Source of the DNA: Phormidium tanganyikae FI6-MK23
GTDB taxonomy: Bacteria > Cyanobacteriota > Cyanobacteriia > Leptolyngbyales > Leptolyngbyaceae
Reading direction: 5' to 3'
Length of the DNA: 64,000 nt
Assembly (NCBI GenBank): GCA_019359175.1
Contig: JAHHHU010000005.1
Location: 175,794-239,793, forward strand
Part shown: positions 29,370 through 56,826 of the stretch, in pieces
Layout of the letters: each line of letters opens with the position of its first letter
How positions within the stretch are numbered: position 1 is the first letter of the stretch
The notes under the pieces: model-generated
The model's input: the letters and a program-made list of their open reading frames with translations, nothing else
What the model was told of the DNA's origin: nothing
Database searches by the model: none
Position numbers and translations under genes: made by a program

Positions 29370-30567
29370 TTATTGCATTCGATCGATAGTACGATATTGA
29401 ACTGCCTCCGCCACATGATGCGCCTGCAAATCGTCGTCACCTGCTAAATCTGCGATCGTTCTTGCGACTTTGAGAATGCGATCGCTTGCTCGAACCGATA
29501 AACCCAAGCGGCGAATCGCATTTTCTAACAGCGATCGCGTCGCGTCATCGAGCTTGCACCATTGCCGTAAATGAGCGCTCTGCATTTCAGCATTGCAGCG
29601 TAAAGCGGTATCTTTGAACCGGATTGCAGCTCGATCGCGGGCTTGTTGAACTCTTGCTCTCACCGTTTCCGAATCTTCTCCAGTCGGTTGCTGCGTAATC
29701 TCTTCAGGCTTGAGCCGATTCACTCCAACTTGCAGATCGATTCGATCCATCAACGGGCCCGACAATCTCGCCCAATATTGCTCTCGCGCTCTCGGTGAAC
29801 AAGTGCAAGGCTGCACCGTATCCGCATAAAACCCACAGGGACAAGGATTTGTACTTGCAACTAAAGTAAACTGTGCTGGAAACGAAACTGATTGTCGAGT
29901 GCGAGAAATGGTCACCGTTCCATCTTCCAACGGCTGTCGAAGAAACTCCAAAACATCCCGCCGAAATTCTGTTAATTCATCCAGAAACAGCACACCCCGA
30001 TGAGCCAGCGAGATTTCGCCAGGACGGGGAAAGCTACCCCCTCCGACTAATGCCGCACCCGAAGCCGAATGATGCGGACTGCGAAACGGACGAACACCGA
30101 TCAGCGATCCCTTATTCTTGAGCAATCCAGCGATCGAATGAACTTGAGTCACTTCCAGCGCTTCCTCAAACTCCAGCGGCGGCATAATTCCCGGCAGCCG
30201 ACGTGCTAGCATCGTTTTTCCACTGCCCGGAGGCCCGACAAAAATTAGATTATGCCCTCCAGCAGCAGCGATTTCTAAAGCGCGACGGGCGTGAGCTTGC
30301 CCTTTGACATCCCGCAAGTCGGGCGCGGAACACTGCGTTTCACTGAGTTCAAGTTCTCCATCGATTCGAGCCGGAGTCGTGCCACTCGGATCATTGAGAA
30401 AAGCGCCCACTTCAGATAAATGCTTGAAGCCGTAAACGTTCAAACCTTTCACCACGGCGGCTTCCCGAACATTATCAGCAGGCACAACTAAGTTAGAAAT
30501 GCCGAGCGTTTTTGCAGCAGCAGCGATCGCTAAAACTCCCGCTACAGGTCGTAGACTGCCATCCAGC
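29370..30567 (-). pseudogene. comM: comM/yifB Mg-chelatase-like AAA ATPase, 3' part, cut by the element
   Basis: C-terminal 400 or so codons of ComM/YifB, a ring ATPase that aids branch migration in natural transformation. Walker A GPPGSGKT, Walker B GVLFLDELTEF, and the zinc-like CPCGFYADTVQPCTC loop are intact. Homology continues past the first ATG (30485) up to 30560, reading LLDGSLRPVAGVLAIAAAA once joined, then stops at the 7-bp core ATCCAGC. The upstream codons are found in the same strand and frame at 56820-57035, beyond the 26-kb insertion. An N-terminally truncated product lacking the Lon-like domain could still be made. Confidence 0.93.
30561..30567. other. Left attachment site (attL core)
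   Basis: ATCCAGC, shared with 56820-56826. To its left the sequence is comM (minus strand); to its right it is element DNA encoding the replication protein. The short core with little flanking identity is typical of large serine recombinases. Confidence 0.85.
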
Positions 30568-33500
30568 GATAGACAAACGTTACAAGGAACAAGCAGAAGC
30601 GATTGTCTGTGGTGATAACAATCGCGGTTGTACTGTCCAAAAGCAATCGAAAAAGGGTAAGGGAGAATCGGGATCTGAAGTTGTCACGTCACCCCCTGTC
30701 TTATATAGATATAGAGAAAAGTGTCACGTCACCCCCCCTAACCTTGATTCGGTAAGCAAGAATACTCAATCCCACTTTATTAAACAGATTGAGAAAGAAT
30801 TTATCGAAGGTTCTGCGATTCATCCTGACTTATTCGCTGAGAACTGCGTTTTTCACTCCGATCTCGAATATGACGTTTCAGGAAACGTTACAAGCCCGAT
30901 CCATGATGCGCTGAACTGGCATCTTGTCCGCTTCGGTCATCAGGCTAACCAAAATTTTGAAGCGGTTCTGATTCAGAATGAGGACGGTTCGACATTTCAG
31001 GCGAAACTTAGCAAACCTCGCACATCGAAAAATGGCAAAGTCTGCAAATACGAATCACCTAAAGGTAACGGAGCGAGAGCATTTTTACCGACCGTTCCCG
31101 CAAGCATTCGCCAACTGATCAGCGAACACTATTTGATCGAAGTTCCTTTAGAGGGTTCTTTCTGGGATTGGGTCAAACAGCGTCCAGAGATTCCAGTAAT
31201 CATCACTGAAGGAGCCAAGAAGGCACTATCTCTGCTCAGTTTGGGATATGTCGCAATCAGTTCTTATGGCGTTGCTAGTGGCATTGTACGTAAGGATGAA
31301 AAAGGATTAAAGCTTCAATACGCAGACTGGCATTTAATCGCGGATTTACAGCAGTTCAACTTATGTGATCGCGCTGTAGTTTTTGCATTTGATCAGGATG
31401 TTAAAAGCTCTACAAACCGCTCTGTAAATCGTGAGTTAGGTTACTTTGCAGATATCCTTAAGCGTTCTGGCGCATCCGTCAAAGTCGCGACATGGCATCA
31501 TTCCCAAGCTAAGGGCGTAGACGATTTAATCGCTGAATTTGGCGAACATGGCTGGTGGGTTACTTACGAAAATGCTCAAGATTTGGAGCAATGGCGGATC
31601 GATTACTACGTAAAGAATGCGCTGCGTAGAAAGCCTGATATCACCGTGAATACTCCGAATCTGACTCAAGCAGGACTAGAGCTTTACGGTAAAGATTTTG
31701 CTTTAGTGAGTCCAAAAGCGACATTTAAGACGGTGTTCATGTCGCAACAATTACGCGATATCCGCCGCATGGACGGGATTTTAGGTGAAGATACTCCGAT
31801 TCTACTTTTGGTGCATCGGATTAGCTTAGGCTCTGACTTATGCCCCCGATTAGGTTTGCAGTGGCGTAACGACTGCGAGGATCGCAACTACGGTAATAAG
31901 CTTGGAACTTGCATCGAAGGATTGTCACAGATTGACATCAAAGATTTCCGTGATTGTATTTTGACGATCGACGAAGCAAAGCAAGTCGCACAGCATCTAC
32001 TTTGCAGCAAGACTACTGAAGCTTATCGCCCCTATTACATCAGCAAAGTGAAGCAATTGATCCGCAATTGTAAACAGTTGATGATTGCCGATGCCGATCT
32101 AGATGATGCAACGATTCGACTTTTTGAAGAGATTCGAGGTAAGCGGATCACCGTTGTTAAGAATGAATATGTGGGTGAAGGATACAATGCGACGATCAGC
32201 AAATGCAAAAACAGCACCGCTCAAACTCGTAGATTGATCAAGCGGATTGAATCGAAACCTTTAGGTAAGACTATCTATATTGCAACTGACAATCGCGCTT
32301 TCTCAAAAACGCTTGCGAAGCTGTTACAGAAAAAGTTTCCAGAATTGCGAATTCTCCTAATCAATCAAGAGACGGTAGGAGATGAGGATCAACGCGAGTT
32401 TATGAAGCGTTCGACAGCAATAATCGACGCTGAACATTACGACGTTGTAATCGCTACTCCTACGCTTGGTACAGGCACATCGATCGAGTCTCACAAGATT
32501 GACAGCGTTTGGGGATTCTTCACAGGGCAATCGATTGATGCCGAAGCAATGATGCAAGCTTTGATCCGTGTGCGTCACTTGTGCGATCGCTTTATTTGGG
32601 TTGCTGAGAAGGGTAGAACGTGGAAATATGGCGCTACCACATCAAAAAAGCGTGTGAAAGAAATCTTAAGCGATCGCGCAATGACAGATTTATCGCTTGC
32701 GTCTGTTGGACAGCAATTGATGGAAGATTTCACCCAAGCTGAATTTACTTGGAAAAATTCACCATTCGTAGATTTGTATTGCCACTTCACAGCAAATAAA
32801 AACCGCTCTGCTTTGAATCTTGCCAGTGAACTCGAAGCGAGGTTGATGAATGAAGGACACAACTTTTTGTATGTACATCCCAACTCAGATAAGACGGATA
32901 AAGAAATCAAAAAAGAACAAGCTGAAATTAAGCAAGAAATCAAAATCGAATCGCGTGATCTGATCGAGAATGCGGCAGATATTGAGAAATCCCAAGTAGA
33001 CGAATTTCGACGCAATCCGAAAGGCATGACTCAAGAAAATCATGCGGCAGTCGCAAAGTATTACGTTAAAGAATTCTATGCGGTCGATGAAGTAGACGAA
33101 ACGCTTCTAGAGTTCGATAACGAGGGGCGCAACCGCTCAATCATTCGTGAACGGGAGAATCTTTTTAATGAGGAATTAGCCACAGAACGCGCTAACAAAT
33201 CGATTTTTAAGGCGACTCACATCCGAGATGCAAAGGTAGCTGATACAGAGTATTCCGATAGCGGTTCCAATGATGGCGAACTTGCTGAGGATTTCACCGT
33301 TTGGGACTTTGACAGCACGATCGCACGTCGTAAGCTTCGACTAATGCTGAACTTAGGTGATTTTCTCAAAGTTGAGAATCGCGAGAAAGTGTACAAATCT
33401 GAAGATTACGCTCCATACGCTGAACTTGCGAGAAAGTACGCTGAACCGATTAAGAAACTTCTGGGAGTCACGATCACCGCAAAAGTTAAAGACGTGCGGA

Positions 33501-33943
33501 TCGTGAATGACTTACTTGCTCAGATTGGCGTAAAGATGACATCGAAGCAGGTTAAAAAGCAAGGTAAAAGCGAATGGGTCTATCTGCTTGATCAGAGTTC
33601 AGAAGAATACACCGAAGCGGTTCTAAAACGCAGATCCGAGAAGTGGGTATCGAAGGAAGAATCGGGATCTGAAGCGGTAACGTCACCCCCCTATTTATAT
33701 AAGAAAAACGGTAACGTGACCCCCCCTAACGCTCAATTGGTAAGCAATTCTACTCACCCTGAACCCGTCCAATTCACCGAAGCGGATATCGAGGACTACC
33801 GAAGCGCGATCGAGGATTGTGGCAACGATGATTTACTCCTTCAAATCTTGGAAGATACCACACCCGATTTATACCAAGTTGCGTTCTCTCGATTGCTTAG
33901 AACCTTACCCGAATCGATTGATCTCGCACTACTGCCTGTCTAA
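30563..33943 (+). CDS. CyRepA-type plasmid replication protein, main part (start codon at the other end of the element)
   Basis: Primase-helicase-like replication initiator of cyanobacterial plasmids (DUF3854/Toprim plus superfamily helicase). Toprim motifs IPVIITEGAKKALSLLSLG and AVVFAFDQDV are clear; the helicase part has a degenerate P-loop SPKATFKT at 31709-31732 (relatives: SPKGTGKT), ILTIDEAKQV and IATPTLGTGTSIES. A C-terminal segment repeats an N-terminal one (ESGSE.VTSPP...VTPPN). The open frame has no ATG before 31739, past the Toprim domain; a TTG at 30512 lies inside comM antisense. Joined through the att core, it gains 52 codons and an ATG from 56666, giving 1178 residues. The integrated copy is therefore headless. 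Confidence 0.88.
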   Translation, partial: PAIDKRYKEQAEAIVCGDNNRGCTVQKQSKKGKGESGSEVVTSPPVLYRYREKCHVTPPNLDSVSKNTQSHFIKQIEKEFIEGSAIHPDLFAENCVFHSDLEYDVSGNVTSPIHDALNWHLVRFGHQANQNFEAVLIQNEDGSTFQAKLSKPRTSKNGKVCKYESPKGNGARAFLPTVPASIRQLISEHYLIEVPLEGSFWDWVKQRPEIPVIITEGAKKALSLLSLGYVAISSYGVASGIVRKDEKGLKLQYADWHLIADLQQFNLCDRAVVFAFDQDVKSSTNRSVNRELGYFADILKRSGASVKVATWHHSQAKGVDDLIAEFGEHGWWVTYENAQDLEQWRIDYYVKNALRRKPDITVNTPNLTQAGLELYGKDFALVSPKATFKTVFMSQQLRDIRRMDGILGEDTPILLLVHRISLGSDLCPRLGLQWRNDCEDRNYGNKLGTCIEGLSQIDIKDFRDCILTIDEAKQVAQHLLCSKTTEAYRPYYISKVKQLIRNCKQLMIADADLDDATIRLFEEIRGKRITVVKNEYVGEGYNATISKCKNSTAQTRRLIKRIESKPLGKTIYIATDNRAFSKTLAKLLQKKFPELRILLINQETVGDEDQREFMKRSTAIIDAEHYDVVIATPTLGTGTSIESHKIDSVWGFFTGQSIDAEAMMQALIRVRHLCDRFIWVAEKGRTWKYGATTSKKRVKEILSDRAMTDLSLASVGQQLMEDFTQAEFTWKNSPFVDLYCHFTANKNRSALNLASELEARLMNEGHNFLYVHPNSDKTDKEIKKEQAEIKQEIKIESRDLIENAADIEKSQVDEFRRNPKGMTQENHAAVAKYYVKEFYAVDEVDETLLEFDNEGRNRSIIRERENLFNEELATERANKSIFKATHIRDAKVADTEYSDSGSNDGELAEDFTVWDFDSTIARRKLRLMLNLGDFLKVENREKVYKSEDYAPYAELARKYAEPIKKLLGVTITAKVKDVRIVNDLLAQIGVKMTSKQVKKQGKSEWVYLLDQSSEEYTEAVLKRRSEKWVSKEESGSEAVTSPPYLYKKNGNVTPPNAQLVSNSTHPEPVQFTEADIEDYRSAIEDCGNDDLLLQILEDTTPDLYQVAFSRLLRTLPESIDLALLPV
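30665..30768 (+). repeat. Repeat R1 (about 100 bp) inside the rep gene
   Basis: Begins GAATCGGGATCTGAAG and ends GGTAAGCAAGAATACTCA. It holds two direct copies of GTCACGTCACCCCC (30683 and 30723) around a TATATA core. Homologous to R2 (33659-33756) in the same gene and frame, and to R3 (46181-46277) in inverse orientation. Confidence 0.75.
33659..33756 (+). repeat. Repeat R2 inside the rep gene 3' end
   Basis: Begins GAATCGGGATCTGAAG; contains GGTAACGTCACCCCC (33676) and GGTAACGTGACCCCCC (about 33710), then GGTAAGCAATTCTACTCA. In frame it encodes ESGSEAVTSPP and NVTPPN, echoing R1. Confidence 0.75.
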
Positions 33944-34020
33944 CACTTGATCACGGGGGAGCCAGTCAAACTTCCCCTAGACGGACTATCGAAAAACATC
34001 TCTCAACTCACAAAAACAAC

Positions 34021-34248
34021 ATGATTAAACAAATCTTCCAATCTCTCGAAATCGTCCGTTTACAAGCCGATGTGAAGCGTCTGCGAACCGAACGCGATGA
34101 ACTGAAGCAGGAACTCTCGAACATTCAATCGGAGTACGAACGCTACCGAGCAGGCGAACTCATCAGGAAAGACGACTTTCTCCAGGATGCGCTCAAATAC
34201 CTAATCAACAGCGGCGCGATCACAGATAACAGATCCGCGATCCGATAA
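34021..34248 (+). CDS. Small coiled-coil protein
   Basis: A 75-residue protein whose first half is a charged leucine-heptad helix (LQADVKRLRTERDELKQELS), a likely dimerising coiled coil, followed by LRKDDFLQ-like and LINSGAITDNRSAI segments. It lies 77 bp after the rep gene on the same strand and may be co-expressed. No family recognised. Confidence 0.6.
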   Translation: MIKQIFQSLEIVRLQADVKRLRTERDELKQELSNIQSEYERYRAGELIRKDDFLQDALKYLINSGAITDNRSAIR

Positions 34249-34289
34249 CCACAACTGCCTACCATCGCCAATCTAAGGAGGACTCACCC

Positions 34290-35550: not shown

Positions 35551-35575
35551 ATTATCCACAAGTTCAAACAGACGT

Positions 35576-36163: not shown

Positions 36164-36364
36164 TTAAATCGAGCAGCAACTTCTTTCATTGAGTTGAAGA
36201 TCTGATGCTACAGAATGTCTTAAAACACTATTCATAAAGCTTCCTCGCAAATGCAGACAATTATATTGACTCAAGAGAATTTCTACAGTCGCTTTCGTGC
36301 GGTCTAGAGATTGCTTTTGAAGCTTTTTTTTGATTGCTTGGGCTACTGAATTTATTTTGCTCAT
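36164..36364 (-). CDS. Small protein coupled to the terminase small subunit
   Basis: A 66-residue basic frame beginning MSKINSVAQAIKKKLQKQSL, with its ATG overlapping the terminase stop (ATGA), so it is translationally coupled. The N-terminal helix is amphipathic; the C-terminus has Cys-Cys (ERSCCSI). No family recognised. Confidence 0.45.
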   Translation of the reverse strand: MSKINSVAQAIKKKLQKQSLDRTKATVEILLSQYNCLHLRGSFMNSVLRHSVASDLQLNERSCCSI

Positions 36365-36909
36365 TCTTCTATCATCCACTTACCATCTTTATTCTGTCGC
36401 AGCTTACAGCCGTAACTTTCCATGATCCGAAGTCCTAAGTTAATATCCGAGAGATAACCGCTTACTCTCAAAAGGGTCTCGATCGCTTGAATCTTCGGGT
36501 GCATCTTAAGCTTGCGCTTGCGTCTGATCCCTTGATCTGTCTCCACTTCATCAATAGACAAATCACTAATGGCAGCAAGAGCGGACGGATTTTTCAATAG
36601 CTCCTCTTTTGGCAGCATTTGACCTGTCGAAAGATCAATCAATTGATCCACTCGCGATAGACCTATTGCCTGTAGCTCAAGGATCAATTTCACTTCATCA
36701 ATGACTACACTTTTCTCTTTTTCGGATTTCAAATAATTTAAGTAAGCTGAAACGCTAGGGTTTTTAAGGAGTTTGCTTGCTTCGACTGATGCGACCGTGC
36801 GAGTTTTGACGCTGTAACCAGCAAGAGTGTAGCTCTGAGTTGCAGATGTCCCCTTGAAGACCTCCTCAGCAAATGCCCTTTGTTTTTGCGTTAGTTTACC
36901 CTCGAACAC
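36361..36909 (-). CDS. Phage terminase small subunit-like protein
   Basis: A 182-residue protein with the terminase small subunit DNA-binding domain: LTQKQRAFAEEVFKGTSATQ, AGYSVKTRTVASVEASKLL and NPSVSAYLNYLKSEKEKSV, then a helical linker and an acidic C-terminus. Terminase small subunits recognise pac/cos DNA and recruit the large subunit. No large terminase, portal or capsid gene is in the element. It lies 26 bp from the recombinase gene on the same strand. A lone terS beside an integrase recalls phage satellites that redirect packaging; here that is inference. Confidence 0.75.
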   Translation of the reverse strand: MFEGKLTQKQRAFAEEVFKGTSATQSYTLAGYSVKTRTVASVEASKLLKNPSVSAYLNYLKSEKEKSVVIDEVKLILELQAIGLSRVDQLIDLSTGQMLPKEELLKNPSALAAISDLSIDEVETDQGIRRKRKLKMHPKIQAIETLLRVSGYLSDINLGLRIMESYGCKLRQNKDGKWMIEE

Positions 36910-36935: not shown

Positions 36936-38858
36936 TTAGTCTAGCTTTTGGGTTCCTTGCTGCAATCCTCGCATAAAATCGGCAAATTCTCTCAAAGGGC
37001 GGATTTCTAGAGGTTCTACGTCTGGATGAGTCACTAGAAACAATTCAACAGCTTCGCTTAAGACTTTCGAGGGTAGCTTATCCCAAGTAGGACGTTCGCC
37101 ACCCCAAACAGCATCAGGAGACATAATAACTTGATCTTTATCTTTAATGTCACGTTCCCCGTTCAGAACCACATTGATATCCCAATTAACTGATCTCTTG
37201 CGTTTTTTCAATTGGTTCTCTGTTAGTGCCATCGGTTGATCATCACTCGGCTTTACCTCAACTCTAGCAACGAGATCCCGATAGATGAAGAACTTTTGAT
37301 CCTCGCTTAACTCTTGCCAGAAGCGATCATCATTCAAAGCTGACAAAATTTTACCTTTCTGTTCTGGAGATATCCTCTCTAGTTTCTTTTCACCTCTCAA
37401 CATTTCGATTTCAGATTGCAATCGTTCGATGACTTCTGGTATGCCTGAAATGTTTTTTGATTTCTGTAAATCTTGAATTTGGTGCTGTTTTTCAAGAATC
37501 TCTGGATTCTCTTTTTCTTCGGTAGGCTTATGTGCTTTCTCTTGAAATCTCATTGCTTCATTTTTGACAGCATTAAGGATTTTCTCTTCTACGACTTCGA
37601 CTCTTAAATAATTTGTGACACCCATAATTTGGAAACTCTCGCACGTCCTTAAATTAGATTTTGGGCAATAATAGTAATAATAATCGCGCTCGGTTCTTGT
37701 CTTTTCCTTGCCAGCTTTATTGTAGGAATAATTAGAACCACACACAGCACATTTAATCAAACCAGAGAGCGGGTGCAACTGTTTACTGGATTGGAATCCG
37801 TGACTTTCTCGATTCTGTTTAATGATTGTTTCAATCTGCCTAAATTCCTCCTCAGTGATCAAACGTTGCTCCAGATGAGTGCCGTAGATAATCTTATGTT
37901 TGCGCTCGTCTCTTTCTTCTAGTTTTTTACCCTTGTTTCTCTTCCTATACTCTTCCTCGCTTTCAAGAAAGTACCTTAGATGACCTCTCAAAACAGGGTT
38001 AGTAATCCAGATTGCAAAGCCTGAAGGTGAACGCTGAAAGATGCCTTCATTCTCAAATCCAGCGTGTGTTACTCTTGCATTTGAGTATTTCAAAAGACCA
38101 TATTTTAGATTGAACGTTCTAATCGTCTTTCTAATGCTTTTGGTAATCAAATAAATATCGACTAAATCCCTAGCAGCATCAGCGCGGCTTAAGGTATTTT
38201 CCTTAGTCCATTTCTCTAGTGTTTCTTTTGTCCAGTCTGAAGTACTTAGTACTTTAGTTTTAGTTTCTCCCTCCTCTATCACTTCGCTTGTTGGCAGCAT
38301 ACAGAGTAAGCCTTTATCATGATCTAACTCATGGTCTAACTCATGCCGTCTAGTCGAAACAGTCTTACCGTCTGCTAATTCAATTTGATCTAGGATGTCG
38401 CTTTTCTTGTAGCCAAAAGGCGGATTCATCGCCTCTTGTCTTTTTCTCAAATATTCCCAACCATGTTTAGAGCGTTCACTGATTAGCTCACCTTCAAAAA
38501 TAGCGACATCGGCTAACACACCTGCTAACAAACGACCTGCTGTAGAATTCAAATCAATCTTTTGATCTAGTACTAAAAGATCAACTTTTGCGTTAATAAA
38601 TGTTTGGTAAACAGTTGAAAGTTCTCTAGTTCTACCTAAGCGATCTATTCGTGTGACCACAACGCGATCTACTTCTTTTGCTTGAACAAGTCTTAAAACG
38701 TCTGCAAAGATAGGACGTGCGCCTTTTGTTGCAGACGCTTCCTCTCTAAAAACTTCAGTACATCCGTGAGTTTTCAAGCGGTCTACCTGTTGAGCTAATG
38801 CGTTAGGGTTTTTCTCTTCATCCTGTTTTGATACCCGCGCATAACCGACGATTCGCAT
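36936..38858 (-). CDS. Large serine recombinase (element integrase)
   Basis: A 640-residue recombinase. The N-terminal resolvase domain MRIVGYARVSKQDEE has the catalytic Ser10; DRVVVTRIDRLGR and LLAGVLADVAIFEGELISE follow. Then come the recombinase domain, a zinc ribbon (IKCAVCGSNYSYNKAG with a second cysteine pair in YYYCPKSNLRTC), and a coiled coil (NPEILEKQHQIQDLQKSKN). It resembles XisF-type cyanobacterial recombinases. It would cut at the 7-bp core in comM and in the element's rep gene. Unusually for its class, it lies about 6 kb from the nearest attachment site. A recombination directionality factor is not identified. Confidence 0.93.
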   Translation of the reverse strand: MRIVGYARVSKQDEEKNPNALAQQVDRLKTHGCTEVFREEASATKGARPIFADVLRLVQAKEVDRVVVTRIDRLGRTRELSTVYQTFINAKVDLLVLDQKIDLNSTAGRLLAGVLADVAIFEGELISERSKHGWEYLRKRQEAMNPPFGYKKSDILDQIELADGKTVSTRRHELDHELDHDKGLLCMLPTSEVIEEGETKTKVLSTSDWTKETLEKWTKENTLSRADAARDLVDIYLITKSIRKTIRTFNLKYGLLKYSNARVTHAGFENEGIFQRSPSGFAIWITNPVLRGHLRYFLESEEEYRKRNKGKKLEERDERKHKIIYGTHLEQRLITEEEFRQIETIIKQNRESHGFQSSKQLHPLSGLIKCAVCGSNYSYNKAGKEKTRTERDYYYYYCPKSNLRTCESFQIMGVTNYLRVEVVEEKILNAVKNEAMRFQEKAHKPTEEKENPEILEKQHQIQDLQKSKNISGIPEVIERLQSEIEMLRGEKKLERISPEQKGKILSALNDDRFWQELSEDQKFFIYRDLVARVEVKPSDDQPMALTENQLKKRKRSVNWDINVVLNGERDIKDKDQVIMSPDAVWGGERPTWDKLPSKVLSEAVELFLVTHPDVEPLEIRPLREFADFMRGLQQGTQKLD

Positions 38859-43234: not shown

Positions 43235-44401
43235 ATGCAGGAGAACGTGTACATTAGCGTTCTTCACACTCAAGCTTCGTGGTCAGCACGCATGGGAATT
43301 GATCTAGGCAGATTTCAAATTGAGAGATTGATCGTCCACGGAATTCCAGAGAAGAAGCTAGGAAGTTTGCCCTACTTATCCTTAAGTGAGGTCGAAAGCA
43401 CTCTTACGCAATCACACAAGAACTTCTTCAACGAAAGAATTGCAGGAAGCCTATCCCACTCAGCGTTTGACGTGGTATTGGATGCAACATCAGATTCGCC
43501 TATTCCAAACCAGATCTTTAAGAGTTTAGAAGATTCTCTTAATAACTTTGTAGATATGTCAATCAAGATGGCTCAACGCCTATATGATAGCCAAACGGGT
43601 GTTAATCCGTCAGGACTACTAACAGTAATTCAAGGAAAAATTGGCAGGGATCAAGTTGTTGCTGTTCTTAAGCTAGAGAAGGACGAAGGTGTTCGTGCCA
43701 CACCGCTCAAGCTTAAGGGGAAGAATACTTTTGATTTGGAACAAATCCACGATTTGATGATGACTGGCAAGACAAAAGTGTTCAAGGCTGGTCTATTCTG
43801 GCAAGAAGGCAACACTTTTGATTCTGTTCGAGGAATGATTTCGGACAAGCAGCGCGGCTCTGGAGGAAATGATGGTGTCGCTAACTTCTTCTTAAAATCT
43901 TTTCTCGGATGCTGTTTACAGGAAGCGCCAAAGCTCACAACCAGAAACTTTTTTGTTGCAAGTGAGGAGTTTATCAACAATGAAGTAGGCGATTCAGCAA
44001 AAAAAGCGAAATATGAAATTGCTCTCTTAGCGATGCTGAATAGTCAGGAGAATACGATAAAACCGAGGCAATTCGTTGACCAGCACTTTGAAGTGTGCGA
44101 TCGCCAGCACTTAATTAAATATCTTGGCAAGTCTGGAGTTCCTATAGTCAGTTTCCCCAAAGATATAGAGCTAATTCAGAATAAGCTGAAACAAGTTTGC
44201 ATTCAGTTTAACAGTGGGATGCGAGTGCTGGGTCCACCGGAGGTGATCGAAGAAAGAATCAGGCTTACAAAAGCAGAAGATGGCTCAACTCATGTTCAAT
44301 TTAATGATCAGCTTAATGAATTGAGAGGCGGGGGGGGGAAATCGAGTAACCGAATTCGCATAGCGCCTGCCTCAGAATCCCAAACGCTTCCTGAAATATA
44401 G
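43235..44401 (+). CDS. NdpA/NA37-like nucleoid-associated protein
   Basis: A 388-residue protein resembling 37-kDa nucleoid-associated proteins (YejK/NdpA): LLTVIQGKIGRDQVVAVLKL, FFLKSFLGCCLQEAPKLTTR, FVDQHFEVCDRQHLIKYLGK and GMRVLGPPEVIEERI follow the family order. The C-terminus beyond residue 360 is glycine- and serine-rich and contains a nine-G tract (44330-44338). YejK-type proteins bind DNA; relatives occur in mobile elements. It precedes the RelA/SpoT-fold gene by 42 bp on the same strand, so they form an operon. Start chosen at ATG 43235 with GGCGGAG upstream. Confidence 0.65.
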   Translation: MQENVYISVLHTQASWSARMGIDLGRFQIERLIVHGIPEKKLGSLPYLSLSEVESTLTQSHKNFFNERIAGSLSHSAFDVVLDATSDSPIPNQIFKSLEDSLNNFVDMSIKMAQRLYDSQTGVNPSGLLTVIQGKIGRDQVVAVLKLEKDEGVRATPLKLKGKNTFDLEQIHDLMMTGKTKVFKAGLFWQEGNTFDSVRGMISDKQRGSGGNDGVANFFLKSFLGCCLQEAPKLTTRNFFVASEEFINNEVGDSAKKAKYEIALLAMLNSQENTIKPRQFVDQHFEVCDRQHLIKYLGKSGVPIVSFPKDIELIQNKLKQVCIQFNSGMRVLGPPEVIEERIRLTKAEDGSTHVQFNDQLNELRGGGGKSSNRIRIAPASESQTLPEI

Positions 44402-44443
44402 TACAATAGTATTGCTAGTCTCCGACCACAGTGAGGCGCACTG

Positions 44444-45424
44444 ATGTCAGTAGCAAATGTTGATTCACTGAGACAGAGGTATGAAAGTGAACGACCAACT
44501 TATGAGAAGTTGGCAGATTTCGTGCAGAAGAAGTTAAAGCAGCAGCTTCTACAAGACTCTATAAGCTGCATGTTTGAGGCGCGTGCGAAAGAAGTTGAGA
44601 GTTTTCTACGAAAAGCATTGCTCAAATCCTACCCCTCGCCGTTTGATCAAATCAAAGACAAAGCAGGTGTGCGAATTATCGTTACATACCCAGATGACAT
44701 AGATCGAGTCAAAGAAGTCATTGCACAAAGTTTTCTTGTCCAGCATATTGAGGACAAAAGTATAAAGCTTGGCAACAATCAACTAGGCTATCTTGGCATT
44801 CATTATGAGGTTTGTCTTCCTAAATCTTTGAATGAAAATGTACAAGAAAGTTTTGAAGGTAAAGTGTGTGAGATCCAGCTTCATACCCGCGCTCAAAACC
44901 TTTGGGCAAGGATATCACATGAACTGCTCTATAAATCTTCTCATGATATTCCTGTCGAAATTCAACGTAATATTTACCGTTTATTAGCTCTAGTAGAATT
45001 ATTTGATAGAGAAATTAAAGATGCTCGATGTGCAATTCAGGAGGAGGCTAATCAGCCTGATGTGAAAATGTTGGAGCGATTAGAAAAGCACTTTTACAGT
45101 TTTACGACTGCAAGCTTTAACAGAGAACTATCGCTCGAAGTTCTTGAAACGCTATTATTACTGTTTGAGAATGATGGTGAGAAGATTGATGAAATTATAG
45201 ATGTATTTGTTGAAAAAAATAGAGAAAAACTCCAGGAGAAATTTAGCAATTACTGTAATGATGGTCATCGCAACCCGCTTCTTTTTCAGCCAGAAGTTTT
45301 CGTGATTTTTGAAAGGCTGGAAGAAGACCCATTTCGACTGAAAGAGCTATGGATAGAGAGCTTTCCTCTTTCAGTCTTGGAATCTCTAGCTAATATTTGG
45401 GGCACAACAGTTGAATTGGAGTAG
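44444..45424 (+). CDS. RelA/SpoT-fold nucleotide pyrophosphokinase-like protein
   Basis: A 326-residue protein with the (p)ppGpp-synthetase fold: IKDKAGVRIIVTYPDD (70-85), GYLGIHYEV (115-123), CEIQLHTRAQNLWARISHEL (142-161). No HD hydrolase, TGS or ACT domains, so it is a small-alarmone-synthetase type. The C-terminal 150 residues are a helical extension of unknown fold. Relatives include stringent-response enzymes and toxic SAS enzymes used in antiphage defence (CapRel, FaRel). With the NdpA-like gene upstream and the membrane protein downstream it could be a toxin in an abortive system; substrate and trigger are unknown. Confidence 0.82.
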   Translation: MSVANVDSLRQRYESERPTYEKLADFVQKKLKQQLLQDSISCMFEARAKEVESFLRKALLKSYPSPFDQIKDKAGVRIIVTYPDDIDRVKEVIAQSFLVQHIEDKSIKLGNNQLGYLGIHYEVCLPKSLNENVQESFEGKVCEIQLHTRAQNLWARISHELLYKSSHDIPVEIQRNIYRLLALVELFDREIKDARCAIQEEANQPDVKMLERLEKHFYSFTTASFNRELSLEVLETLLLLFENDGEKIDEIIDVFVEKNREKLQEKFSNYCNDGHRNPLLFQPEVFVIFERLEEDPFRLKELWIESFPLSVLESLANIWGTTVELE

Positions 45425-46183: not shown

Positions 46184-46277
46184 GTATTTTTGCTTACCGA
46201 AATTGTCTTAAGGGGGTCACGTTACCCGTTTTCTTATATAAAACAGGGGGTGACGTTACCGCTTCAGATCCCGATTC
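46181..46277 (-). repeat. Repeat R3 (inverse copy of R1/R2)
   Basis: On the minus strand begins GAATCGGGATCTGAAGCGG, has GGTAACGTCACCCCC and GGTAACGTGACCCCC (46246-46260 and 46212-46226 on +), and ends GGTAAGCAAAAATACTCA, matching R1 and R2 in the rep gene. Here it is not in a recognised gene. Confidence 0.7.
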
Positions 46278-46472
46278 AGCCTTTCGTAGATCACTTACTG
46301 TCCACTTATCGCAACATCTCCGATTACCCGTCTCGCAACCACGCAACAGGGAACCACACGATAAGCTCAATAGCTCCTCTAAGGATGCCCTCTAAGGTCG
46401 GTCTAAAGCTTTGTGCTTTAGGATTTAGTCGTTTGTTGAATATCTCCTGATTTGGGTTTAGGAGGTGATTCA

Positions 46473-50588: not shown

Positions 50589-51572
50589 CTAACGACCTCC
50601 AACGATAGCAGGGGTCTTTACTGCCCACAGTTCACCCAAAGTTTGCACACTGGCAAAATCTGATGTTTCAGCGAAGATACACCCGCGCTCATTTGACCAA
50701 TCATTAGCGCGATCACCTAACGCTAACTTGAGAAGTTCGGAGCCGCCTCCAATTAACAGAGCATCACTCGATAAACCTTCCTCTCTGGCGATCCGTCTCA
50801 ACTTGGGTAAAAGCGCGATCACATTCTGATCGAACCATTCAGGAACTAATTCACCCAAGAAAGGCAACAGATCAACGCTACGAATAGAAGTGTCACCTTT
50901 CGCCAAAGTGAGCGCTAGTAATTCAACTTGAGGGCTTGATTTACCTTCTTGAGCGTTGATGCTGGAGACAAACTTAGGATGATTCAGAAGTTTCGTTAGC
51001 AATTCTTCCGAACCGTTCTCAAGGATCGCGCTGTACCCTTCCACACCTCGCACAGAACCCAACACCGTGCCATATCCAATATCTAGAACGATATCAGCAT
51101 CCGATTTCTTGAGAACGATAGAAGCTTCAGGGAATACATCAACGCTCTTAACCTTAAGCTTCAACGTTTGACCACTAACGCAAAACTTACGACCTTTCAG
51201 CGATGCTTCGTAAGTCGCTTTGAGTGTGGGATTACAAACAGGTGAAACCACACTAAGATTCTCAATCTCGATATTGTGACCGATGTTTGAACGGTTCATC
51301 AGTTCTTGCAGCACACCCGCGAGAACTACAGCGAAATGATCTACTTTCCCTTGTGCACCTGTCTCACTCGGTCGGATTGTCGCACCCAACGCAACCTTAC
51401 CAGCGGATGCACCATAGAGCCATTCAATACCATCCACCGAAACAGGATCAGACTTCCCGCGATTTTGCAGAAGCATCGAAGCAAACTTACCGAGATAGTT
51501 ACGACCATCTTCTAGGTGAGCCATCCATTTAACCGATCCGTTGCCTCTGTCGATCGCTAAACTCAATTTCAT
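50589..51572 (-). CDS. Actin-like plasmid segregation ATPase (ParM/StbA type)
   Basis: A 327-residue actin-fold protein: phosphate-1 motif LAIDRGNGSVKW (5-16), phosphate-2 IVLDIGYGTVLGSVRG (near 161-176) and adenosine motif ALLIGGGSELLKLAL (near 272-286). It forms filaments that push plasmid copies apart. The actin-like and ParR-like genes, plus the repeat array just upstream, indicate a type II partition locus, which implies the element spends time as a low-copy plasmid. Confidence 0.8.
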   Translation of the reverse strand: MKLSLAIDRGNGSVKWMAHLEDGRNYLGKFASMLLQNRGKSDPVSVDGIEWLYGASAGKVALGATIRPSETGAQGKVDHFAVVLAGVLQELMNRSNIGHNIEIENLSVVSPVCNPTLKATYEASLKGRKFCVSGQTLKLKVKSVDVFPEASIVLKKSDADIVLDIGYGTVLGSVRGVEGYSAILENGSEELLTKLLNHPKFVSSINAQEGKSSPQVELLALTLAKGDTSIRSVDLLPFLGELVPEWFDQNVIALLPKLRRIAREEGLSSDALLIGGGSELLKLALGDRANDWSNERGCIFAETSDFASVQTLGELWAVKTPAIVGGR

Positions 51573-51599
51573 TTTTCAATCCTCTAAATTTCTTGATTT

Positions 51600-51807: not shown

Positions 51808-51922
51808 ATTAGATGCGTTAGATAAAATCATTAGATACAGCGTTAGATGGCGCGTTAGATGCGTTGGATAGGACATCTAACGCACTTTTAGGACATTTAT
51901 CTAACGCATCTAACATCTAACG
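51808..51922. repeat. TTAGAT repeat array, candidate parC centromere
   Basis: Five direct TTAGAT cores (51809, 51818, 51831, 51843, 51855), many within GCGTTAGAT, followed by four inverted ATCTAA cores (51875, 51899, 51908, 51915). The array lies immediately upstream of the partition operon, where ParR-binding parC repeats are expected; an iteron origin is an alternative. Confidence 0.65.
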
Positions 51923-51930
51923 GAAGATTA

Positions 51931-52296
51931 CTAAATGTTAGTAGAAAGCTCTAACATACGCTTAAACATTTGCGTTTCATTAGAATAGCTCTCTACATAT
52001 TCGCAGACGACAAAAGGACTTTCTTTACGTGACTTAGTGCGATAGCGAGTCGGAAACTGGATAATTTCACCTTTCACACGCCAGATGTAACCCTCGTAAG
52101 GGAAGCACTCACCTTTAATCGGTCTGAAGTTAAAACCTAAGAGAAACTGCCCACGAACTTTAGAAACTTCGATCGCGCTCCGAGTCTCTGCCACTTCATC
52201 AGGTAGATAGAAATTGCACAGAACCCATGATCGAGGTTGACGGATTTTGATGTGATTCGTAATCTGTGTGGCATTGACTGCTTCTGAGAATTCCAT
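51931..52296 (-). CDS. Hypothetical element protein
   Basis: A 121-residue soluble protein, strand-rich (WVLCNFYLPDEVAETRSAIE and GFNFRPIKGECFPYEGYIWR). It follows the P-loop ATPase by about 40 bp on the same strand and ends next to the TTAGAT array. No family recognised; perhaps the last gene of the ATPase operon. Confidence 0.5.
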   Translation of the reverse strand: MEFSEAVNATQITNHIKIRQPRSWVLCNFYLPDEVAETRSAIEVSKVRGQFLLGFNFRPIKGECFPYEGYIWRVKGEIIQFPTRYRTKSRKESPFVVCEYVESYSNETQMFKRMLELSTNI

Positions 52297-52338
52297 AATT
52301 ATTTGTGATTGGCTGAGGTTCGATTGAGAGAGAGGGAA

Positions 52339-54270
52339 TTAGAAATCGTAATCGTCTTCTGCGGCAGAGTATCGCCCGTTGTCTTCAGTTAGAAAACCTT
52401 TCGATACCAGTTGAGGCAATAGCCCTTCCTTAAGGCGATCAGTCGTCAGTGAGCTATCGCCTTTAATCTTCAGAATGTCAGCTTTGAACCGAGAGGGTGC
52501 TAACGCTTCACCCGATTTCTTACGCAAGTAATTAACAATGAGTGATGCAACCTCTAATGATTTCGGTTTCCATTGCGGGAATGCTGATCGAATCTCAGGC
52601 AGTGACGACGATGTTTCGATCACGTCTTCTTCTACCTCATGCTCTGCCGATGGTAGCTCTAGCATTCGATTGAGTTGCTCACGAGTCGAAATGATCTCGG
52701 GTTGGGGTGAATCGCTGAAAGGGTTTGCTTTGGGTTTAGCAAACGGTTCAGCCTTAGCACCCTTGCGAGTGTCGAACTCAGGGAAGAACTCAAGAAGCGA
52801 TCTCACTGGACAGGGGGCGTTATTCCATTCGGGGTTAGTATCTGTTAATAGCCAATCTGGGATCGTGAACGTTTCACCAGAGGACTTGTAGAAACCTTCG
52901 ACTTCCTGAAGCAACTCGTACTGTCCCGATGGTTGGTAGGAGCCTGATTCAGTTTCATACCGCTCTGTCCAAAACATTTTCACTTCTGCCTTGAAAGTCT
53001 CAGCAGTTCCGCCTTTTAGTCCGTTAGCTGATGCGGTCTTGTGATGAACGATGAATCGAACTCTGCCGCCTTGCTTTGCGAACCCCGTCAACGCCATATC
53101 CCAAAATGCGAAACGAGTTTTTTCAGAAAGTTCTCCAGCGGTTGATGAGAACTCATCTAGAATCCAAGTCTCACCCGATAGCGAGTTCATTGAACCGTTG
53201 TTAATGCGATCACTCAATACTGTTAGAGCGTCTACAGCGTTTGCGGTTGAACCGTTAGCGTATCCATCGAAGGCGACAGGATAAAGGTCATTGTCGCGCG
53301 TTACATAATAGATTCGCTGTCCCATTGCTTTCTCAAGGATTGCCAACAGGATGATCAGCGTAGTCTTTCCTGAACGCTGCAACCCTCCAGCCGCTAAAGT
53401 CGATCGTCCTGCCAACTTACGCAAATCGCATCCACTCTCAGCTAATAGCTTCATCAGATATTGAGCGCGATCGCTCAATGGTAATGCGATCACCTGTTGT
53501 TTGGTTAAACGCTGAACCGAAGCAACCTCTACTGATTGCGAAGGAACCTCTACAGCATTCAATCGAGTTTCACTACCGATTGCTTTGGGTTGGTCGGTAG
53601 GCTGAGGCATTGGAACCCAACCACTGTCAATCGGCTTCTGCTGCTGATTCAAGAATGATTCTTTGATTGCTCTAACGAATGTTGCAACCTCTTCAGCCTT
53701 GCGACCTTGGCGACTCGCGAGCGCTTTATTTGCAGCGATGAATGGCTCTTTAGTCGAATCACTGCGGATCAAACGATCACCGCTAATCGAACCTCTAGAA
53801 GCTTTGAATAATAAATGTCTGAAAGTCTCATCACCATTTTGATCCGACTTGTGGCAATAATCCCAAAGCGCAGCCCAATTAATTGATTCAGTAGACCTCA
53901 GCGCGAGATAGTGACGTTCTAATTCTTCTTGTACAGGCGACAGCTTTATTTTACGGTTTACAGTATTTCCGATTCCAACAGCCGCGCTAGTTGCGCCCAT
54001 GAATCCTAGAACTGCTACAGGCAGAATCGGCAGTGAAACAAAAGCGCCAATCGACATCGCAGCGGCAAAACCTGAAACAATCCCTAACCAACCACCTTGC
54101 TCAGTCGAATTTTTAATATCATTTTCGACTTGATGAGTACCATCCGCAAGTCGATCTAGAAATTCAATTCGATCCGCTAGGGTATGAATATCGAAGGATT
54201 CCAACGCTTTATAGTAAATGACACGAAAAGGATCGTCTAACAATTTTTGATTGATGATTAATGCGCTCAT
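52339..54270 (-). CDS. Membrane-anchored P-loop ATPase
   Basis: A 643-residue protein. Two hydrophobic helices near 60-100 (GIVSGFAAAMSIGAFVSLPI and PVAVLGFMGATSAAVGIG), then an ATPase domain with Walker A GGLQRSGKTT near residue 294 and a Walker B-like GETWILDEFSS near 370. The C-terminus carries a winged-helix-like region. The layout recalls DNA-transfer coupling or packaging ATPases, but there is no clear VirD4/FtsK signature. Separated from the upstream membrane genes by a terminator. Confidence 0.7.
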   Translation of the reverse strand: MSALIINQKLLDDPFRVIYYKALESFDIHTLADRIEFLDRLADGTHQVENDIKNSTEQGGWLGIVSGFAAAMSIGAFVSLPILPVAVLGFMGATSAAVGIGNTVNRKIKLSPVQEELERHYLALRSTESINWAALWDYCHKSDQNGDETFRHLLFKASRGSISGDRLIRSDSTKEPFIAANKALASRQGRKAEEVATFVRAIKESFLNQQQKPIDSGWVPMPQPTDQPKAIGSETRLNAVEVPSQSVEVASVQRLTKQQVIALPLSDRAQYLMKLLAESGCDLRKLAGRSTLAAGGLQRSGKTTLIILLAILEKAMGQRIYYVTRDNDLYPVAFDGYANGSTANAVDALTVLSDRINNGSMNSLSGETWILDEFSSTAGELSEKTRFAFWDMALTGFAKQGGRVRFIVHHKTASANGLKGGTAETFKAEVKMFWTERYETESGSYQPSGQYELLQEVEGFYKSSGETFTIPDWLLTDTNPEWNNAPCPVRSLLEFFPEFDTRKGAKAEPFAKPKANPFSDSPQPEIISTREQLNRMLELPSAEHEVEEDVIETSSSLPEIRSAFPQWKPKSLEVASLIVNYLRKKSGEALAPSRFKADILKIKGDSSLTTDRLKEGLLPQLVSKGFLTEDNGRYSAAEDDYDF

Positions 54271-54294
54271 GGCAGAATTAAAGGGTTAGTGGAC

Positions 54295-54338
54295 AAAAAA
54301 ACAGCGCTAAGTTTACGAGGCTTTAGCGCTGTTTTTTT
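54295..54338. terminator. Bidirectional terminator between two membrane genes
   Basis: AAAAAAACAGCGCTAA (54295-54310) pairs with TTAGCGCTGTTTTTTT (54323-54338); T tracts on both strands. Confidence 0.8.
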
Positions 54339-54344
54339 CGGGAA

Positions 54345-55124
54345 TTAGAAGCCGAACTTTTTCATTTCATCTTCATCGTCTTGCAACTGTGAAACGCGAT
54401 CGCTTACAGCGCGAGTCACACCTGTAGTTGCCGCAACGCCTTTCAGCGTCCATTCGGGAGCAAGCAGAGAAGCAGCGGCTACGCAGATTGCCCAGAATTG
54501 GAACTGACCAACGATGGCGGTATAGGTCAGAACTAAACCTGTCTCAATGCAGTAGCTCATCAACCGCATACCCTTAAGAGTGCCGTGGTCATACGTGAGC
54601 CATTGCGTTAACTTCTCTTTCAAAGTTGGTTTCTCTAATTCCGCTTCTGGATCGATATGCAAATCAGAGTAAGCTTTAGCGATCAACGGTTGCAGCTTCC
54701 ACAGTTCAGGAGCCAACTGATACACATTGATACCAAATCCAAGCAGTAACCCAAACAATCCGCCGCCGATACCCCAACCTTCGCTTAAGCCGAACATCTG
54801 AAACAACCAAATGCCGATCCCATACCACTGATAACCCGCTATCACAACGAAGATTGTAAAGAAGGTAATTGCCACTACTGAAGGCATCGTAGGGTGTGCG
54901 AGTAGTTCCACAAGGTAACGGAACAAGTATACGAGCAGCGTCATAGCGTTTTTGATGATGCTAAAGACAATCTCAATACACGCTCTCAAGAATCCGAAAA
55001 CCTTGTTAATAATGTTCAAGAAACCTCGCTTACGATTCTTCGGAGGTTTACTCCCTGGAGGCTTCGTAGTTGTGGTCTGTGATTGCGTAGGGAAATCGTC
55101 AAAATCAAACAGGCTACGGCTCAT
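54345..55124 (-). CDS. Polytopic membrane protein of the element
   Basis: A 259-residue protein: basic N-terminus with Thr/Pro run, then hydrophobic segments near 65, 95 (VVAITFFTIFVVIAGYQW), 130 (GLFGLLLGFGINVYQLAP) and 205 (LVLTYTAIVGQFQFWAICVA), and a charged C-terminal tail. It is in an operon with the two small genes upstream (GTGA and close spacing). Function unknown; a mobility or envelope role alongside the ATPase is possible. Confidence 0.65.
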   Translation of the reverse strand: MSRSLFDFDDFPTQSQTTTTKPPGSKPPKNRKRGFLNIINKVFGFLRACIEIVFSIIKNAMTLLVYLFRYLVELLAHPTMPSVVAITFFTIFVVIAGYQWYGIGIWLFQMFGLSEGWGIGGGLFGLLLGFGINVYQLAPELWKLQPLIAKAYSDLHIDPEAELEKPTLKEKLTQWLTYDHGTLKGMRLMSYCIETGLVLTYTAIVGQFQFWAICVAAASLLAPEWTLKGVAATTGVTRAVSDRVSQLQDDEDEMKKFGF

Positions 55125-55126
55125 GA

Positions 55127-55528
55127 TTAAATCCTCGATAATTGATTAGTAACCTCGGTCTGAGTAAAAACAAAACGCATTCTCATCGCACCGTTGTAGG
55201 CTGCAAGGTAAGCGAACTGCGAGCCTTCTACACTCACAACGCAGGACGAAGGGATAAGCGCACCGTCCTTTGTGGTGGGAGCTACCCGATCAACCGTTAG
55301 AACTCCGTTTGCTTTCCAACAGTTATGAATTCGGGCTTCTTGTGCGACGACTAGTAAAGCTCTAGCGCGATCACTGTGGCGTTGTGCGCTCTCCTCCTGA
55401 AACGTTTTGTCTCTAGTGGTTCGCTGTAGGTTCTGTGAAACAATAGCGACACCTGATATGCAAGCCGCAAGGACACAAACTCCTGCGCAGAATTGAGAGG
55501 TTAGGTTTGAGGAAATCGTAAAATTCAC
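55127..55528 (-). CDS. Single-pass exported or membrane protein
   Basis: A 133-residue protein starting at GTG 55528 (overlapping the previous stop as GTGA), with one N-terminal hydrophobic segment (FCAGVCVLAACISGVAIV) and a soluble C-terminal domain with two cysteines (HNCWKANG and SSCVVSVEG). It resembles small periplasmic or pilin-like accessory proteins only in layout. Two bases from the next gene. Confidence 0.6.
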   Translation of the reverse strand: MNFTISSNLTSQFCAGVCVLAACISGVAIVSQNLQRTTRDKTFQEESAQRHSDRARALLVVAQEARIHNCWKANGVLTVDRVAPTTKDGALIPSSCVVSVEGSQFAYLAAYNGAMRMRFVFTQTEVTNQLSRI

Positions 55529-55680
55529 TTGTTTACCCTCCGTTCCACCCTCGGAACATCAACCGAAAATCTAACGCCCTGCTCTCGCACCCAATAGCCA
55601 GCGCTGAAGGCACTTGCGATGCAAACGATAGTGATGATTCCTCCGATTTGGCTACCGTCGTCTTTGTGATAATTGCTCAT
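55525..55680 (-). CDS. Small single-pass membrane protein
   Basis: A 51-residue frame: MSNYHKDDGSQIGGIITIVC, then IASAFSAGYWVREQGVRF and a basic end. One transmembrane helix. The stop TGA overlaps the GTG of the next gene, supporting real translation. Conserved spacing in the operon favours a functional peptide. Confidence 0.6.
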   Translation of the reverse strand: MSNYHKDDGSQIGGIITIVCIASAFSAGYWVREQGVRFSVDVPRVERRVNK

Positions 55681-55701
55681 TTTTCAGTCCTAATAATTGA
55701 A

Positions 55702-55908
55702 TCAATGACAAACCTCGAAATGATTCACGCGCCACAGTAGAGCGGCTAAGTTTTCGCCTTCAGAGTCGCGCAGTAAATACAGCGAACCGTCCCAACCCGA
55801 TAAAAGCGGAGACGGTACAAACTGCTCGAAACCCTTACGCCTGCAATAGTCGGAATACGCTGTAGAAGCGCGTGAGAACGCCTCTTGTGAACTCATGCGA
55901 GGATTCAT
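55702..55908 (-). CDS. Small hypothetical element protein
   Basis: A 68-residue soluble protein (MSSQEAFSRASTAYSDYCRR, then LLSGWDGSLYLLRDSEGE). The first gene of the minus-strand operon that continues with three membrane genes and the ATPase. An ATG at 55896 (MSSQ) is an alternative start. No family recognised. Confidence 0.5.
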   Translation of the reverse strand: MNPRMSSQEAFSRASTAYSDYCRRKGFEQFVPSPLLSGWDGSLYLLRDSEGENLAALLWRVNHFEVCH

Positions 55909-56145
55909 CGGTGAGCGTCCTATATGTAGAGGTGACTGAAGAATTCAGCATTCGATCACCTTCAGAACTGGCTTAGGTGATCGCGTGTGAAATCTTTTGA
56001 TTTGTGCTGCTCCCCCTATTCGTTAAAACTCAGGTTCCTAGCCAGCACTCAATTGTTAAAGGTTCTGTCGGTCGGAAAGTCTTGAGATTCAACGATTGCA
56101 ACCCTCCAGGTGTCTTAGGCTTTCGCTTTTTCTCTCCATGTCTCT

Positions 56146-56218
56146 ATTATAGCATCATATTTATGGAGTTATCATTTATATGGACGCATCATATTTGTAG
56201 GGATGTTTACGCTATAAT
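56146..56218. promoter_or_regulatory. Divergent promoters and operator between the ATPase operon and the Xre gene
   Basis: A minus-strand -10 TATAAT lies at 56146-56151 and a plus-strand TATAAT at 56213-56218. GCATCATATTT occurs at 56152-56162 and 56186-56196 between them. The layout suggests that the Xre-type protein made from 56256 represses both directions. Confidence 0.55.
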
Positions 56219-56255
56219 GAGAGATATAAGACGTGAAAGAATAAAGGTATGACGT

Positions 56256-56516
56256 ATGCAAACCTGTAGGATGCCTGTAGTAAATCGGTTAAAAGAATTT
56301 CTGACAGAGAAAGGGATCTCTGTTTATCGTTTTCGGTTAGATCTGGACATGAGCCAGACAACCGCTTACAAGCTTGTCAATAATCCGAAACAGATTCCAT
56401 CAGGTGAAGTGTTAGGAAAAATCTGCGATTACTACAGCGTACCTGTACAAAAAATTATTGAATGGATACCGCCGCTAGATAACGAAAAAGCCTCAGAACT
56501 CACTGAGGAGAACTGA
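56256..56516 (+). CDS. Cro/C1-type helix-turn-helix regulator
   Basis: An 86-residue protein: VNRLKEFLTEKGISVYRFRL then LDMSQTTAYKLVNNPKQIPS, a classical HTH_XRE, followed by ICDYYSVPVQKIIEW. It could repress the divergent ATPase operon and its own promoter and may influence rep expression, because its gene points to the right end where the rep start lies. A terminator follows. Confidence 0.78.
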   Translation: MQTCRMPVVNRLKEFLTEKGISVYRFRLDLDMSQTTAYKLVNNPKQIPSGEVLGKICDYYSVPVQKIIEWIPPLDNEKASELTEEN

Positions 56517-56525
56517 GGCTTTTCA
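56486..56525 (+). terminator. Rho-independent terminator between the Xre gene and the rep start
   Basis: AAAAGCCTCAG (56486-56496) pairs with CTGAGGCTTTT (56513-56523). It isolates the rep start region from Xre transcription. Confidence 0.75.
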
Positions 56526-56665
56526 TAATGCTTTCACAATTCAGGACGCGCTAGGCTAAAAGAAGTCGGATAGAGAATATTTCAAGAGTTGGTCTAAACT
56601 CTGCATTAAGCAAAAAAAATAGACCCCCTTGCGACAGGGAGCCAAACAAAAATCTTACTTTCACG

Positions 56666-56821
56666 ATGAACGATTCATACAATTCTGTCAAGTCCGAAAA
56701 CGAAATCTCCTTAGAACCGACGACTGCTTATGACACTATTCTAACAAATATTAAGACTCAAGACAATCCGAATGCGAACATTCAAGAGTCTAACAATTTG
56801 TTCCCTGTATCGATCGAGAAT
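56666..56821 (+). CDS. CyRepA-type replication gene, 5' end (52 codons) at the right end of the element
   Basis: ATG 56666 opens a frame MNDSYNSVKSENEISLEPTT, then AYDTILTNIKTQDNPNAN and NNLFPVSIENPA, that crosses the 7-bp core in the same phase as the headless rep gene at the left end (both have codon boundaries N/H-CCA-GC). In the integrated form it runs on into comM antisense and stops at 56872. Joining 56821 to 30563 gives NPAIDKRYKEQAEAIV without a stop. Low-complexity polar N-termini are plausible for this family. The upstream 140 bp likely hold the rep promoter. Confidence 0.75.
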
Positions 56822-56826
56822 CCAGC
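56820..56826. other. Right attachment site (attR core)
   Basis: ATCCAGC, identical to 30561-30567. To its left is the 5' end of the element's rep gene, to its right the minus-strand comM coding sequence (GEVLLD). Confidence 0.85.

Follow-up and report, generated by a model that had tools for sequence, protein, structure and literature searches.

A replication gene whose reading frame spans the predicted attachment site of a cyanobacterial element inserted in comM

The window considered here is a stretch of 64,000 nucleotides from Phormidium tanganyikae FI6-MK23, positions 175794-239793 of contig JAHHHU010000005.1 (C1) in a 77-contig genome; the contig appears to stop at 239793, where the window ends. 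It holds a 26.3-kb element inserted in the host gene comM and bounded by two copies of the core ATCCAGC, at 30561 (left) and 56820 (right). The start and the body of the element's replication gene (rep) lie in matching frame at its opposite ends, so that the rep frame spans the predicted attachment site of the joined ends (attP), an arrangement confirmed at the level of the reading frame. The features on which this observation depends are listed below, in window coordinates.

29370..30567, minus strand: C-terminal part of host comM, with a Mg_chelatase match
30561..30567, plus strand: left core ATCCAGC (attL); predicted crossover dinucleotide AG at 30565-30566
30563..33943, plus strand: rep body, a CyRepA1-type replication protein (DUF3854 and helicase); 1126 sense codons, without ATG, GTG or TTG before 31133
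36936..38858, minus strand: large serine recombinase related to XisF, the predicted enzyme of integration and excision
56666..56821, plus strand: rep start piece, an ATG and 51 further codons that reach the right core in phase with the rep body; the start region is similar in the G005 element described below
56820..56826, plus strand: right core ATCCAGC (attR); predicted crossover dinucleotide AG at 56824-56825
56820..57035, minus strand: middle part of host comM, which is interrupted again at about 57040

From ATG 56666, 51 full codons and one more that reaches the core bring the frame to 56820 in phase 1. Beyond the left core rep continues in this same phase, with no stop from 30563 up to the one at 33943. 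Frame arithmetic confirms the original prediction that joining the two ends gives 52 + 1126 codons without a stop. In 20,000 trials with simulated DNA of matching composition, the fraction in which a given frame remained open over the 124-codon test stretch (ATG 56666 to the core plus the core to 30779) was 0.0007. The earlier statement that the rep body has no in-frame ATG before 31739 also holds, and it can be extended, as neither GTG nor TTG occurs in frame between the core and TTG 31133. This codon, the first of the three kinds, lies inside the conserved region, which supports the view that the integrated rep body is without an ordinary start codon.

The rep body scores 129 bits with DUF3854 and 300.2 bits with the CyRepA1 model NF042913 (cut-off 200), and is therefore assigned to CyRepA1. 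Among 72,556 plasmid records, 464 match the body from 30779 onward, and in 69 the match covers at least 80% of that stretch. The match is a single unbroken piece in all four plasmids inspected; three annotate CyRepA1 there, and in the fourth (L028) the match lies at the end of the record without an annotated gene. A protein search gave 443 rep homologues, the best 120 of which, less the window's own protein, left 119 for alignment; among these best matches 118 start downstream of the core, with the median start at body residue 48. Because homologues start after the core, the start piece and the first ~45 body residues are regarded as an element-specific extension. The idea that the attachment site splits a conserved Rep N-terminus is rejected on these start positions, and the homologues begin where the original prediction had said they should not if it were right; yet the start codon and leader are lost all the same, and nothing in the window's rep body replaces them. 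As judged from the alignments, integration deprives rep of its start codon and leader but of no catalytic or conserved domain.

The core repeat, taken by itself, is weak evidence for an element, since the window contains 16 copies of ATCCAGC where 8.65 would be expected, and it was rejected as sole evidence. The element is taken as real because comM reads through the core, because a large serine recombinase is encoded inside, and because a related element occupies the same position in another genome (G005). The N-side of comM ends in LFLGEVLLD and the C-side begins LDGSLRPVAGV, the two parts sharing the codons CTG GAT at the core (comM codon 111); six other genomes of the genus (G001-G004, G006, G007) have comM uninterrupted at this position. 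The window contains no transfer RNA gene that could serve as target, and an Rfam search of 30000-58000 gave 0 matches.

All three domains of the recombinase exceed their Pfam cut-offs (Resolvase, 105.8 bits against 23.3; Recombinase, 21.4 against 21.1; zinc ribbon, 35.3 against 25.3), and these scores, together with dyads in the attP arms, place it among the large serine recombinases. Its score with the XisF model NF041201 (337.6 bits against 375) makes it a relative of XisF and not a member of that family. The attP arms, on the element side of the cores, form an inverted repeat at 10 of 16 positions in the window, equalled by 71 of 5000 shuffles, and at 15 of 18 positions in G005, equalled by 0 of 5000. 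The host-side arms are weaker dyads (8/17 in G005, 125 of 5000 shuffles as good; 7/17 in the window, 2416 of 5000). The predicted crossover dinucleotide AG is placed by the centre of the attP dyad; this position agrees with the single mismatch between the two G005 cores, at core position 4, just left of the AG.

The original prediction also had excision rejoin comM. This part is not borne out, because comM has a further break near codon 41 (window 57035-57045), one shared with G005 and with matching flanking sequence, so that excision of the element would not restore the gene. The first part of comM was sought in the window and not found there; in G005 it lies about 22 kb off, past chromosomal-type genes (contig C37; L026, L027).

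The G005 element gives the strongest support for the split of rep. G005, a genome of the same genus that first turned up in a search of 58 relatives, carries a related 24.3-kb element at the same comM position and with the same split layout, so that the proposed search for a related element with rep spanning its attachment site did yield one, with the same wiring and a very different rep. The C-terminal parts of comM in the two strains are 93% identical, but the recombinases are only 45-49% identical (the small-terminase-like neighbours, 62%), and the two elements are therefore probably independent acquisitions. In G005 the start piece, from the ATG at L026:7019, has 58 codons up to the right core, and the rep body continues from the left core for 1370 codons, in phase 0 at each end; in the corresponding simulation (115 codons) a frame stays open as long in 0.0027 of 20,000 trials. 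Since the two elements pass through similar attP DNA in different phases (1 in the window, 0 in G005), the shared site sequence alone fails to explain the open frames. The two rep proteins give no blastp match at 1e-5. The G005 protein has no Pfam match, a different N-terminal half and a distant CyRepA1 helicase half that scores 182.1 bits with NF042913, below the cut-off of 200 and hence outside CyRepA1; 11 of its 13 homologues begin downstream of the core.

The right end of the window element has two features of a putative control region, one upstream of the rep start piece and one overlapping the rep start.

56256..56516, plus strand: Cro/C1-type helix-turn-helix (HTH) regulator (PF13443, PF01381), upstream of the rep start piece
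56612..56731, minus strand: predicted antisense RNA across the start of rep; promoter-like site at 56766-56738, terminator hairpin at 56643-56622 followed by a T run

The right ends of the window and G005 elements share conserved blocks, and both carry two minus-strand features: a promoter-like site lies within the start piece, and a hairpin followed by a T run lies immediately before the start codon. Both right ends are accordingly annotated with a predicted antisense RNA around the rep start codon, a call made from consensus matches only, with the G005 hairpin coming from a fold and absent from the terminator scan.

The split of rep is not a general property of elements in comM, being found in two of seven. 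Relatives of the recombinase lie inside comM in five other genomes, at the same position in G096 and G220 and at a second position in G141, G259 and G272, and in all five the recombinase gene is located at an element end. The ends of these comparison elements were placed through comM matches and by eye, not by mapped cores. Open frames running inward from the attachment site do not exceed 34 codons at either end of G096, or 22 codons in G220, where a single end is present on the contig; G259 and G272 have a 496-codon frame, the recombinase itself, at one end and at most 33 codons at the other, and G141 has 178 and 34. A frame of more than 1000 codons at one end combined with a same-strand frame of more than 60 codons at the other occurs only in the window and G005 among the seven (one end for G220). 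G096 has a large intact open reading frame (ORF) adjoining the recombinase, with no family match marking it as rep, and G220 a P4-primase-type ORF. The split is probably a derived trait, since these five elements with related recombinases are without it (one end missing in one).

Whole-genome searches with the recombinase, in genome sets that overlap, gave matches at 1e-30 in 8 of 388 genomes of the class and 2 of 42 of the order (own genome counted in both), and at 1e-45 in 2 of 36 genomes of the G096 family and 1 of 386 of the phylum (own genome counted). One of the seven relatives in the class, G247, has two matches outside comM and an intact comM. A third long recombinase, P0002, is 48% identical and lies on a 9.7-kb contig. 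The search of genome contigs for further members gave one match, distant and clostridial, and scans of viral contigs found none. As a separate observation, XisF-related serine recombinases have targeted comM repeatedly, at two positions in the gene (L043-L055, L078-L081).

Other features of the element are the following.

30659..30768, plus strand: segment of the rep start region that recurs at 33653-33756 within the 3' part of rep and, in part, at ~46212-46283 (minus strand)
36361..36909, minus strand: small-terminase-like protein, directly downstream of the recombinase; 62% identical in G005 (L025 9373-9918)
50589..51572, minus strand: actin-like (ParM-type) partition protein, a weak match (phrog_691, 3.9e-06); G005 counterpart at 25% identity
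51931..54270, minus strand: two backbone genes, of 121 amino acids (51931-52296) and 643 amino acids (52339-54270), with counterparts in G005

With rep, a partition-like protein and a recombinase, the gene set of the element is plasmid-like. It has 38 ORFs of at least 80 amino acids, many overlapping; among the 30 compared with PHROGs, only the small-terminase-like protein matched a head-and-packaging family, and none of the capsid, portal, tail or large terminase genes expected of a temperate phage or phage satellite was found. This protein is a candidate excision (directionality) factor; relatives were not found by tblastn in the searched stretches of the other comM elements. The backbone proteins are 63% (over 120 amino acids) and 42% (over the last 120 amino acids) identical to those of G005. 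Parts of the 643-residue protein match 36 plasmid records, all cyanobacterial, and the 121-residue protein has no match among plasmid records. The window's repeat copies are 74-84% identical. G005 also repeats a rep-start segment near the 3' end of rep (L025 2944-3062 and 6697-6815, 83% over 119 nucleotides). The rep-start repeats of both elements are possibly origin repeats. Elsewhere in the window, an NA37 nucleoid-associated-like gene is followed by a RelA/SpoT-domain gene matching the candidate defence family PDC-S33 (43235-45424), and a GNAT acetyltransferase gene stands beside a KptA/Tpt1 RNA 2'-phosphotransferase gene (60861-62287), followed by an IS110-type transposase (62761-63840).

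The locus is read here as an integrated plasmid-like element with attP in the N-terminal extension of rep, whose excision would rejoin start and body and turn replication on; we put the probability of this reading at roughly 0.6. The recombinase would act at the ATCCAGC cores, crossing over at AG, and the integrated rep body would be silent. In the excised circle, transcription from the right end would yield, through the joined frame, a CyRepA1-type initiator of 1178 residues, with the antisense RNA across the start codon setting the initiator level; the small-terminase-like protein beside the recombinase may direct excision. Replication would thereby be confined to the circle. A plasmid origin active within a chromosome would be expected to do damage, which integrative elements are usually taken to prevent by means of repressors; the benefit of the present arrangement would be that active initiator is never made in the chromosome, where firing of the plasmid origin would harm the host.

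A more general proposal, for which we consider the odds about even, is that the initiator is gated by recombination: the attachment site is coded within the initiator, integration strips start codon, leader and antisense-RNA copy control together, the plasmid is switched in all-or-none fashion, off when integrated and on when circular, and the same module of attachment site and control has become joined to two very different initiators. If this is true, topology itself would be the switch, acting on the initiator's reading frame with no regulator needed. The integrase, attP and Rep also form a testable set for cyanobacterial genetics, and comM stands out as a repeated landing site for XisF-related recombinases. 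The interpretation given in the original prediction is partly supported: it is right in outline but errs on the fate of comM and on the portion of Rep that is removed.

Several observations weigh against reading the locus as a switch. The extension seems dispensable across the family, 118 of the 119 aligned CyRepA1 homologues (best of 443) starting after the core. Promoter-like sites at the right ends are near chance (4 against 2.5 expected in the window, 4 against 2.0 in G005), the whole antisense RNAs fold no clearly better than shuffles (z of -0.25 and -1.30), and on the plus strand of the window the stretch from the HTH gene to ATG 56666 gave no promoter-like site, the two matches on that strand both falling within the HTH gene. 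The similarity of the window and G005 start pieces is modest, a score reached by 58 of 5000 shuffles and nearly reached by a neighbouring frame, and is insufficient as proof of coding selection. An in-frame GTG 171 bp beyond the core is the annotated start of the G005 gene, so that integration there might remove a promoter only. In the window, TTG 30512 is in phase with the rep body and could in principle start the integrated frame, though it sits in host DNA, antisense to comM.

These points bear on three alternatives. The position of attP within rep might be a passive by-product, attP having landed in a tolerant extension whose frame is open because the free plasmid needs Rep, with no selected switch. 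Most homologous Reps start past the core, and the extension would therefore tolerate change; the presence of the split in only two of the seven comM elements examined fits as well. We nevertheless hold this to be unlikely, because the same arrangement is kept with two very different rep bodies and in different phases through attP; moreover, start and leader are still lost on integration, whatever the origin of the arrangement. It is also conceivable that excision has been lost and that the element is a fixed relic, its intact frames left over from a recent integration. The break of comM elsewhere in both strains would leave the host without pressure for excision, but the recombinase, its neighbour and rep are open over their full length and the cores and arms look intact, which makes a relic quite improbable. 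The third alternative is that the integrated rep body is still expressed, through TTG 30512 in the antisense comM DNA or a rare start, and that replication is not shut off. The open, in-phase TTG 30512 and, in G005, the in-frame TTG 22837 and GTG 23062 (working coordinates) would allow this. Set against them, 30300-31200 contains no promoter-like site (0 found, 0.9 expected), the TTGs lie inside antisense host coding sequence, and the window's rep body has no usual start from the core to 31133, itself within the conserved region; expression from the integrated state is judged improbable as well.

Parts of the proposed arrangement have counterparts in known systems, the comparisons below being with the text available from each source. 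XisF-type interruption elements share a related serine recombinase and a position within a host gene; the main text of the survey available has no match for chelatase or competence and describes no rep parted by an attachment site (PMC4874684). The Synechocystis plasmid pSYSA depends on CyRepA1 as a free plasmid, and the asRNA1/ssr7036 pair just upstream controls its copy number (PMC9978351). It is like the present element in its CyRepA1 initiator and antisense RNA control near rep, and differs in that its antisense RNA overlaps a small upstream gene; an attachment site in rep is not mentioned in the portion of that paper at hand (PMC9978351). In Tn916, as in the proposed circle, certain transcripts arise only when the ends are joined, but these concern transfer functions and no frame is parted (PMC6540685, citing Celli and Trieu-Cuot 1998). 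The suicidal archaeal integrases of SSV type have attP within a gene that is parted by integration; there, however, it is the integrase gene that is split, whereas the present element keeps its integrase whole and has a split initiator (PMC8371274). Mycobacteriophage BPs also has attP within a regulatory frame, so that integration alters the product, but integration truncates the C-terminus and yields an active repressor, while the present element loses the start of its initiator and would be silenced (PMC4557955).

Our literature search, which left most subscription papers outside its reach, found no bacterial initiator frame parted by its own attachment site, and the available texts on actinomycete integrative and conjugative elements and on Pf prophages contain none. 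The closest precedent is the archaeal pleolipovirus SNJ2, in which excision rejoins a replication operon, a rejoining that its authors term a regulatory mechanism (PMC13107129). Because SNJ2 reconstitutes its replication operon on excision, the claim that no described cyanobacterial element is wired this way is too strong as a general one, and it stands for a bacterial rep frame as far as that search extended. In both systems replication functions are parted at the two integrated ends in an order that can be joined, a likeness in the way they would work, with no homology claimed; the available text on SNJ2 further describes rejoining on excision, a tie to the circle and a new ORF across attP (PMC13107129). 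The SNJ2 case is experimentally shown, concerns an archaeal virus and operates at the level of the operon, leaving, by the available text, the initiator ORF19 uncut (PMC13107129). Its integrase is of the tyrosine type, that of the present element a serine recombinase. In the present element it is the predicted initiator's own reading frame that is parted, and this in a cyanobacterium.

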